Positions 32,273-34,318 of a stretch of 35,054 bases of DNA are shown in pieces. The stretch spans positions 1 through 35,054 of the forward strand of contig CALEAC010000116.1 of assembly GCA_937944095.1 (NCBI GenBank), given 5' to 3'. Under the pieces are notes generated by a model, which did not search any database, had not been told where the DNA came from, and saw only the letters and a program-made list of their open reading frames with translations. Made by a program: the position numbers and the translations under genes. The DNA is from an uncultured Saprospiraceae bacterium. Lineage in GTDB: Bacteria > Bacteroidota > Bacteroidia > Chitinophagales > Saprospiraceae. Numbering within the stretch: the first letter of the stretch is position 1; each line of letters opens with the position of its first letter.

Positions 32273-32375
32273 CGTCGATTATTCTCAATAAATAATAATT
32301 TTCAAGGATTTATTTTGACCAAATTTTGGTACTCAGTCAAATAGTTGTATATTTATACTAATCAAACAATTATGT

Positions 32376-32500
32376 ATGGTGTCACCATGCCGGATTCCGC
32401 AGGTCAGCGACCTGCACCCCAAAAGACATGTGGAATAATTCCTGTTTGGCCAGGTGTACGATTAATATCGATTACACAAAAAGTATAACAGACAAACAGG
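32376..32500 (+). ncRNA. Structured intergenic region, candidate small RNA or REP-like element
   Basis: Part of the 450-bp gap after the nucleosidase-like gene. Elements in order: palindrome ATGGTG-T-CACCAT (32376-32388); hairpin GCAGGTC-AGC-GACCTGC (32399-32415), followed by ACCCC; an 8-bp stem CCTGTTTG (32441-32448) with CAAACAGG (32493-32500); and, nested inside it, GTGTA-CGAT-TAAT-ATCG-AT-TACAC (32454-32477). A strong terminator follows 46 nt later. A 38-codon ORF (32372-32488) covers the same bases but looks like chance. The tight 3-nt-loop hairpin followed by ACCCC is also reminiscent of REP elements mobilised by HUH transposases. The first 100 bp of the gap show nothing. Confidence 0.4.
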
Positions 32501-32546
32501 TAGTAATAGACCCAGATCTTTATTCCTGTTCTTAAAAAGAATCACG

Positions 32547-32574
32547 CCGAACTAGCTCCTAGTTCGGTTTTTTT
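32547..32574 (+). terminator. Strong rho-independent terminator
   Basis: CCGAACTAG (32547-32555), loop CTC and CTAGTTCGG (32559-32567) form a perfect 9-bp stem, followed by seven T (32568-32574). It is oriented for plus-strand transcripts: either a long 3' UTR of the nucleosidase-like gene (275 nt) or the candidate small RNA just upstream. Confidence 0.85.
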
Positions 32575-32677
32575 ATGGAAGAAAACTGTGTTCGAAGATT
32601 GCAATTATTGGAACGCTGTGTGTATTCAAAAAATAATTTCAATGCTATTCAATTTCTTGCAGAGTTGTCTTTATGAT

Positions 32678-32705
32678 AATATTACAAATATTACGTGGTA
32701 ATATT
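32678..32705. repeat. Three AATATTAC half-sites after the Abi gene
   Basis: AATATTAC occurs directly at 32678-32685 and 32687-32694 and inverted (GTAATATT) at 32698-32705, 20 bp past the Abi stop codon. The outer copies form an 8-bp stem on the minus strand without a T run. It may be a weak terminator or protein-binding sites. Between it and the terminator at 32574 there is only a 33-codon ORF without support. Confidence 0.3.
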
Positions 32706-32725
32706 TTGCACTCTGTAACAATGAG

Positions 32726-33667
32726 TCAATTTATAAACTTTTTCCAAAGCGCTTGTCCTTTCCAATTTTCAGGAAATCCCATATGATTTAGATCCACAAC
32801 CTCATATTTACTGAATAGGTCCATCAATTGATAACCATATTTACTGCATGGGTTCACAGATTCAAGACAATATATTATTGCACAGATGACGGCATAGACT
32901 TTAAGTTCTTTGTCCTTAGTATCTTTGTTTTTTTCTTCATTTTCCCATCTATCTATCCATGGTTTCTTTGGAGATTTGATCCAGGCTGGACTTATTGTTA
33001 GTTTCCTATTCCATAACCTACTATGGTGTGCACATATGTTCCTAACATATACAAAGGTTTCTACCCAAGAAATCAATACACTGTGATGGAGGCCAAAACT
33101 TTTGGCAATCGGTATTAGGTCTTTAAAGTCAGCTGTATTTTTTAAGATGCCTAGTAAGGAATTGAAAGTTAAGAGCTCAAAGGATTTCCATGAAGGAGGC
33201 ATAAACTGATTATAGTTTTTCTTGTATCTGACTATGAAATCTTGTTTAGTCTCATCTGAAGTGGTTGCTATTTTATTTAGCAGCTTAAGGTAGCCTTGAT
33301 AATTCTTAAACGCAGATGAATCCTCATACCAGAAACCTGAATTGTATTTAATCGAGAAATGATAAATTATCTGTGTTCTTATAGCGATTTCAATTTGCTC
33401 GATAGCCTGAAAAGTAATAGTACGGAAGTCGCTATCAAACTGATACAACTTAAACGCAGTATCAAAGGTGGCGCCGTCTTTGAAAATTTCGTCTTTCTTG
33501 GGCTCTGCCAATAAAGGGAACCAATAATTACTGAGACGGTTGTAACTTATGTAGGTTAGGATTTTTTCAGCTCTTTCCTCATTTAAAATGGAAAGATTTC
33601 TTTCTTTGAGCAGAGCCACTTGATTTCTGAAAGTCTTTGGTGTCTTTGTGTATTCTGTCTTGGCCAT
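32726..33667 (-). CDS. Abi_2 (AbiD/AbiF-type) HEPN abortive-infection protein
   Basis: A 313-residue protein from the ATG at 33667 (MAKTEYTKTPKTF); the tracked TTG start at 33739 falls in a promoter-like box. Family features: TFRNQVALLKERNLSI near residue 12; ILTYISYNRLSNYWFPLL (37-54), the classic Abi_2 signature; then FDSDFRTITFQAIEQIEIAIRTQI (77-100); and YVRNICAHHSRLWNRKL (207-223), whose Arg209-x4-His214 is the HEPN RNase motif. Family members are phage-defence or toxin-antitoxin RNases that arrest the cell. No protein antitoxin is encoded beside it; instead the flanks hold strongly structured DNA. It sits alone in an islet between housekeeping-type genes, which suggests horizontal acquisition. 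Confidence 0.9.
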   Translation of the reverse strand: MAKTEYTKTPKTFRNQVALLKERNLSILNEERAEKILTYISYNRLSNYWFPLLAEPKKDEIFKDGATFDTAFKLYQFDSDFRTITFQAIEQIEIAIRTQIIYHFSIKYNSGFWYEDSSAFKNYQGYLKLLNKIATTSDETKQDFIVRYKKNYNQFMPPSWKSFELLTFNSLLGILKNTADFKDLIPIAKSFGLHHSVLISWVETFVYVRNICAHHSRLWNRKLTISPAWIKSPKKPWIDRWENEEKNKDTKDKELKVYAVICAIIYCLESVNPCSKYGYQLMDLFSKYEVVDLNHMGFPENWKGQALWKKFIN

Positions 33668-33687
33668 GAGAGGTATAGATACAGAAA

Positions 33688-33744
33688 ACCCCCAAAAAAT
33701 GCACATCGTAGAGAGGTCCGGGGGGTATTGATAACACAAATATA
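33688..33744 (-). promoter_or_regulatory. Abi promoter box and G/C-run hairpin in the leader
   Basis: The minus strand carries TATATTTG (33737-33744), a -7 consensus match about 70 nt before the Abi ATG. The predicted leader contains ACCCCC (33688-33693 plus strand) opposite GGGGGT (33721-33726), a 6-bp stem enclosing 27 nt. On the mRNA the G run is followed by TTTT, so it could act as a weak attenuator. No clear -33 TTG was found. Confidence 0.4.
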
Positions 33745-33779
33745 CGCAATGAAGCTATACTATGTATTACTTTAATTTA

Positions 33780-33938
33780 CAATGAAAACTGTGTATCCTC
33801 AATCATACCAGTAGCTTAAAACTGACAAACGAAATTTGATTGATTTTCTAATTCTGATGGAAAAATGAACCATTAACCCTTAAAACACAAAGTTTTCATT
33901 GACATTCTGAACTACTGGTAAGGTAGCGGATACACAGT
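33780..33938 (-). ncRNA. Candidate structured (pseudoknot-capable) RNA or inverted-repeat element upstream of the Abi gene
   Basis: No gene is convincing here, but three long perfect complementarities occur in 160 bp. Stem 1 is ACTGTGTATCC (33788-33798) with GGATACACAGT (33928-33938). Stem 2 is TACCAGTAG (33806-33814) with CTACTGGTA (33912-33920), nested inside stem 1 with 7 unpaired nt on each side. Stem 3 is CAATGAAAACT (33780-33790) with AGTTTTCATTG (33891-33901), which crosses stems 1 and 2 and so would form a pseudoknot or a competing fold. The strand is uncertain; minus is chosen to match abi. The symmetric 27-nt arms could alternatively be the terminal inverted repeats of a small MITE. 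Confidence 0.5.
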
Positions 33939-34178
33939 AATAGAATAATAAGGAAATTACCACAGTCATAATAGACCCTAACGGTGGTCTGCTTTTTAAC
34001 AGATTCTTTTACTACGGGCTCCTTTACAAGAGGCTTAGCTACAAGAGCTAGTTGTTCTGCTTCTGCTACTGTGGCAAAGGATGCTGTTTGTCTATTAACT
34101 ATTGCTACCTCTTCTTTGATACTGAGGCTATTATTTCTTTACAAAAAAAGGATGCACATAATGCACCCCAAAATGACT
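33939..34178. other. Islet spacer without a recognisable gene
   Basis: The 103-codon plus-strand ORF in the track (33984-34295) has low-complexity Ser/Thr/Ala sequence in this part and no family resemblance. On the minus strand a 70-odd-codon open frame (containing VAEAEQLALVAKPLVKEPVVKE) has no start codon. Both may be debris of a former gene. TGCACATAATGCA near 34154 is a small dyad. Confidence 0.4.
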
Positions 34179-34269
34179 AACACCCTTGATCTTTCGGAAA
34201 GATCCGTAAGTAGAATTTCCAGCATTGGAAAAATGGGGGTGTTGGTAAGGAGGGGTAAGCTTATAACTG
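34179..34269 (+). pseudogene. Possible winged-helix gene remnant, also able to fold as a three-way junction
   Basis: Two readings compete. As protein, the plus frame ends LDLSERSVSRISSIGKMGVL, VRRG and a C-terminal SWYPFV, which looks like the last helix-turn-helix and wing of a DNA-binding domain (LSERTVxR..xxLxxxGxLxRxG..W) with the front missing. As RNA, AACACCC (34179-34185) pairs with GGGTGTT (34237-34243), enclosing two hairpins: GATCTTT-CGG-AAAGATC (34188-34204) and TTTCCA-GCAT-TGGAAA (34216-34231). A terminator follows at 34271. I cannot choose between them. Confidence 0.3.
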
Positions 34270-34270
34270 A

Positions 34271-34308
34271 AAAAAGCTGGTATCCTTTTGTCTAGATACC
34301 AGCTTTTT
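34271..34308. terminator. Bidirectional rho-independent terminator
   Basis: AAAAAGCTGGTATC (34271-34284) and GATACCAGCTTTTT (34295-34308) make a 14-bp perfect stem with a 10-nt loop and A/T flanks on both sides. It lies 10 bp after the Bax inhibitor-1 family stop on the minus strand, and also at the end of the plus-strand element at 34179-34269. Confidence 0.88.
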
Positions 34309-34318
34309 GATTTTTAAT

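Follow-up and report, generated by a model that had tools for sequence, protein, structure and literature searches.

Known AbiF systems

Toxicity, RNA binding and neutralisation have been demonstrated experimentally for relatives of the AbiF protein described here (PMC12373285). In Clostridioides difficile, the abiF motif of phage phiC2 forms part of the tested antitoxin RNA RCd22, and disruption of a single base pair in each of its motifs abolished neutralisation (PMC12373285). A double mutant of the residues R210 and H215 of PbAbiF was reported to be inactive (PMC12373285). For PbAbiF, toxicity, RNA binding and neutralisation are summarised in PMC12737573. Cas13 is proposed to descend from AbiF and its RNA; a first-pass annotation of the DNA studied here had mentioned such a link for the Abi_2 family, and it is supported. 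The kind of system is already described, and the window, a stretch of 35,054 nucleotides from an uncultured Saprospiraceae bacterium, adds a new, ordinary example. The locus is in all likelihood an AbiF/abiF-RNA toxin-antitoxin module, judged from its sequence, with a hairpin at 33678-33726 as the antitoxin RNA.

The AbiF protein and its genomic context

The abiF gene (32726-33667, minus strand, ATG at 33667) encodes an Abi_2/AbiD-F HEPN protein of 313 aa. Its product matches the Pfam family Abi_2 (PF07751) with an E-value of 4.5e-48 over positions 1-184 of the 184 in the profile, and the AbiD model of PADLOC with an E-value of 4.3e-72. PbAbiF (PDB 8VZ6) matches it over the full length (E 1e-51, residues 12-309). 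The catalytic motif reads R209-N-I-C-A-H214, as the first-pass annotation had given it (R209-x4-H214), and R209 and H214 align with R210 and H215 of PbAbiF. This HEPN RNase motif, RNxxxH, is retained by all AbiF homologues checked. No protein antitoxin was found beside abiF, as had been noted before; a 103-aa ORF at 33984-34295 has no Pfam match.

A second Abi_2/AbiD protein is encoded in the source genome (contig C152 of G000, L118:3091-3966, minus strand). Its gene begins 4 nt past a gene for an MmeI-type IIG restriction-methyltransferase; a MerR-like gene and a serine recombinase come next. Upstream of this second gene, no abiF RNA was found.

In four genomes of the same genus (G005, G001, G011 and G012), the genes for a Bax-inhibitor and a DUF6909 protein are close neighbours without abiF between them. 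In the window the two genes are separated by 2 kb, which contain abiF, its RNA and a repeat described below. The absence of abiF between these neighbours in the four genomes suggests that the module was gained locally, between the baxI and DUF6909 genes. The interval corresponding to 32273-34318 is much shorter in same-genus genomes, where a small secreted-looking ORF replaces abiF, and G003 carries yet another gene at the equivalent place. Just beyond the end of the Bax-inhibitor gene, the window contains a perfect inverted repeat of 14 bp (34271-34308), which encloses a 10-nt loop and is flanked by A/T runs; it looks like a two-way terminator.

A conserved hairpin RNA immediately upstream of abiF

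The comparison covered the 420 nt located 5' of the gene in 26 abiF homologues or fragments. Nearly all of the close homologues, and also many of the distant ones, have a hairpin immediately 5' of abiF, which measures about 50 nt and runs into a U-rich stretch. In the window this hairpin spans about 49 nt (33678-33726, minus strand), lies on the same strand as abiF and ends 10-11 nt before the ATG at 33667. Its outer stem P1 is formed by 33720-33726 and 33688-33694 and its inner stem P2 by 33716-33718 and 33702-33704, both on the minus strand; the stems enclose the conserved loop CUCUCUACGAU, and a U-rich tail follows. The box TATATTTG (33737-33744, minus strand), a promoter element of the Bacteroidota -7 type (TAnnTTTG), is found 10 nt 5' of the hairpin. 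Such a box is present in 16 of 21 hairpin copies, almost always with the same 10-nt spacing, and a copy from Burkholderiaceae carries a TATAAT box where the others have TAnnTTTG. The fixed position of the box suggests that the transcript begins at the foot of the hairpin. A terminator scan did not call the window's hairpin, because its loop is longer than the 8-nt limit of the scan.

Compensatory changes in the hairpin are strong. The MAFFT alignment (A1) puts the 3' arm in the wrong place in some rows, so the pairs were counted manually as well, in 14 distinct sequences with 10 pairs each, leaving out one degraded (L028) and one atypical (L025) copy. In this count 133 of the 140 cells were paired, compared with 109.8 ± 2.9 after shuffling, and none of 2000 shuffles reached 133. 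Changes on both sides were seen in 7 of the 10 pairs. In the model-fitted alignment, the covariation score was 0.391 against 0.166 ± 0.020 for shuffled alignments, and it did not exceed 0.133 once partners had been slid. The conservation includes the single-stranded letters of the loop in addition to the stem.

Our own model R1 scores the window's hairpin with 53.9 bits, a value which is not independent since this hairpin was included in both models, R1 and R2; independent of their training are the hand count and the scores of the Rfam family RF03085. RF03085 was the only Rfam family to match in a 141-nt scan of 33640-33780. Its alignment to the window's hairpin takes in all 37 positions and scores 15.3 bits, short of the gathering cut-off of 37 bits; the score corresponds to an E-value of 2.3 over 4227 families and about 5e-4 for RF03085 alone. 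This low score explains why Rfam misses the window's copy: no family was found at the gathering score in the whole window, or at E ≤ 1 in 33500-34300. Most copies in this bacterial order are likewise missed, and the cut-off is passed in just 2 of 101 related genomes. The equivalent hairpin is marked by RF03085 at other abiF loci with 57.4 (L020), 47.6 (L008), 35.6 (L017) and 30.7 bits (L006). With its P1 and P2 stems and the conserved loop, the window's hairpin is homologous to members above the cut-off. In addition, the second-round model finds the abiF motif 5' of abiF in phage phiC2 (19.9 bits). By its sequence and fold, we identify the hairpin at 33678-33726 as an AbiFr-like abiF RNA (RF03085), the motif of the tested antitoxin RCd22.

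The window carries a single copy of this motif, with two irregularities. The innermost P1 pair is C-U and therefore broken, unlike in the closest relatives, and the outer pair of P2 is G-G throughout the window's sub-clade. As one-base-pair disruptions inactivate RCd22, the window's copy might be weakened.

Distribution of the abiF RNA among relatives

Across 149 related genomes, model R2 scored 39.8 bits or more at 19 sites; the source genome has a single match. Fourteen of the 19 precede an Abi_2 gene or its remnant on the same strand. Two further matches precede an eroded abiF (L116 on contig C22 of G102 and L117 on C79 of G061); in both, the RNA looks intact though the toxin gene has decayed. 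The remaining three (L062:1500-1547, L064:1501-1545 and L071:1500-1559) have no abiF nearby. The hairpin of L062 stands 5' of a small ParE-like toxin-antitoxin pair, and that of L071 directly adjoins an AbiH gene of the opposite strand.

A stem with a U-rich tail directly 5' of abiF could also be a purely cis-acting leader, that is, an attenuator or terminator or a translation-control element of abiF and not a protein-binding RNA that acts in trans. RCd22 does lower the expression of abiF in cis as well (PMC12373285). The conservation, however, covers the loop letters and not the stem alone, and the RNA persists at loci with a decayed or missing abiF (L116, L117, L062, L064 and L071). Moreover, a homologous RNA co-purifies with AbiF and neutralises it in trans (PMC12373285), and the structure of PbAbiF was solved together with its RNA. 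We therefore consider a leader function alone very unlikely and prefer an antitoxin RNA that would act on the protein. The persistence of the RNA would fit solo antitoxins that guard the cell against incoming AbiF modules: in this Bacteroidota order, the abiF RNA may have split into several sub-types that Rfam misses, and genomes with an eroded abiF, or none, may retain the RNA by itself. We put this forward as a tentative and rather unlikely proposal.

A dispersed repeat upstream of the promoter

The first-pass annotation had described a different structure at 33780-33938, consisting of three perfect complementarities, and proposed it as a pseudoknot-capable RNA antitoxin. The three pairings are exact: 11 bp between 33788-33798 and 33928-33938; 9 bp between 33806-33814 and 33912-33920, nested within the first and set off from it by an internal loop of 7 nt on either side; and 11 bp between 33780-33790 and 33891-33901, crossing the nested pair. 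They also exceed local chance. When the remainder of the window was divided into 1728 tiles of 159 nt, 99 of them contained a perfect inverted match of 9 bp or longer and 6 contained one of 11 bp or longer; the stretch at 33780-33938 has three, two with 11 bp and one with 9 bp. It folds strongly on both strands, and RNAfold gives z = -3.4 for the minus strand and z = -4.5 for the plus strand; as the plus-strand fold is the more stable, the sense of abiF is not favoured. It lies upstream of abiF, as an antitoxin RNA might. It is not directly upstream, as had been stated, since 112 nt separate the nearest stem arm from the ATG at 33667, and the conserved promoter box and the hairpin sit in between.

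Comparison with related genomes points to another origin. A segment of about 150 bp (33787-33938, no strand assigned) recurs five times in two genomes of the same genus: G003 has three of these copies and G005 the other two, all 77-86% identical over about 150 bp. All six copies end at CTGTGTATCC...GGATACACAG, which form terminal inverted repeats, and their flanks are unrelated. The five other copies are intergenic, and no abiF was found within about 1.5 kb on either side of them. Conversely, the repeat is absent from the 420 nt upstream of all 26 abiF homologues or fragments examined. The nested stems can also be explained as the terminal inverted repeats of this segment. They show no covariation among the copies, with 82.1% of cells paired compared with 81.6% after shuffling. 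The crossing pairing fares no better: its first arm (33780-33790) is mostly flanking DNA, as the repeat ends at 33787/33788, its second arm (33891-33901) lies within the repeat, and the other copies show no more pairing at this stem than shuffles do (63/500). An RNA antitoxin encoded at 33780-33938, upstream of the conserved promoter box, is thus extremely improbable. The earlier reading was right about the system and wrong about the element: an AbiF toxin gene with an upstream RNA is present, and the partner is the hairpin at 33678-33726, which fell within the span considered at the time (33668-33940) and was left undescribed.

We conclude that 33787-33938 matches a MITE-like dispersed repeat, unrelated to AbiF and inserted 5' of the promoter of the abiF RNA. 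A MITE with many copies elsewhere in the genome had been considered before; copies elsewhere do exist, in the two sister genomes, and the source genome itself has a single one. By eye, no clear target-site duplication was seen at the six old copies, and a non-exhaustive search found no parent transposase, which leaves its mobility putative. Conserved inner blocks and stable folds in the six copies would also suit a structured non-coding RNA that is specific for the genus and not mobile. The copies number six only, their stem changes are mostly uncompensated, homology stops at the terminal inverted repeats, and the strand opposite to abiF gives the somewhat better fold. Such an RNA therefore appears unlikely, and we retain the dispersed repeat as the preferred reading. 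An integron attC site, an idea that came from the shape of the element, was dropped as no R-box-like ends were seen. The plasmid collection gave no DNA match. G009 (contig C24, L036:1481-1526) has a near-perfect palindrome of 40 nt which is made up of sequence from the repeat's right end (CTGTTTATCCTCAATCATAC...) and is possibly a related minimal element.

Proposed function of the module

The protein family, the catalytic motif, the covarying hairpin fixed before abiF, the promoter box and the nature of the repeat were established at the locus itself; RNA-protein binding, toxicity and neutralisation are carried over from experiments on relatives. By this analogy, the short hairpin RNA very probably keeps the AbiF RNase toxin silent. 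Transcription would start at about 33731 from a promoter at about 33737-33760 on the minus strand. The nascent RNA is predicted to fold at once into a stem of 6-7 bp and an inner stem of 2-3 bp with the conserved loop, and to end in the U-rich tail, giving an RNA of about 50 nt as the putative antitoxin. Part of the transcription may read through into abiF, so that toxin and antitoxin would come from one transcription unit. The RNA would bind the AbiF dimer and cover the HEPN active site (R209/H214), which would switch the RNase off. Once this balance is upset, with phage infection as the presumed trigger, unbound AbiF would be expected to cut single-stranded RNA and growth would stop. The module would be type III-like, with neutralisation by binding of the RNA to the toxin as in relatives (PMC12373285).

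As most abiF RNAs of the Saprospiraceae type escape the public model, these findings may guide the choice of RNAs in future surveys. They also call for caution in such surveys, since a striking but unrelated repeat beside abiF can pass for its antitoxin. For structure-function work, the window supplies a compact natural variant with a single motif (49 nt) and a covariation set.

Comparison with described systems

The repeat shares with MITEs the length of about 150 bp, the terminal inverted repeats, the intergenic and dispersed location and the lack of coding sequence. It differs by its few, diverged copies, without a clear target-site duplication or a transposase that could be found. With lactococcal AbiD/AbiF (AbiD model of PADLOC, E 4.3e-72), the window's protein shares the family; the lactococcal systems are plasmid-borne and phage-tested, whereas the AbiF described here is chromosomal and known from sequence. 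PbAbiF-AbiFr (8VZ6) is homologous over the full length of the protein (E 1e-51) with aligned catalytic residues and differs in taxon and sequence, in a comparison that is based on the protein chains.

The RNA agrees with RF03085 in its place before abiF, the P1/P2 layout, the loop CCUCUC-ACGAUG and the CA after P2. Around P2, RF03085 has AAGC/GCUC, whereas the sub-clade of the window has GGAC/GUGC, and the window's copy reaches 15.3 bits against the cut-off of 37. RCd22/AbiF of C. difficile phi027/phiC2 (PMC12373285) shares the Abi_2/AbiF HEPN protein, the RNxxxH motif and an abiF motif that lies directly upstream in the same orientation. RCd22 measures 100-130 nt, contains the abiF motif twice and has a separate terminator (PMC12373285), whereas the window has one motif of about 49 nt with the U-rich tail directly after it. 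Finally, the RCd22 system is located in the lysis module of a prophage, and that of the window is chromosomal.
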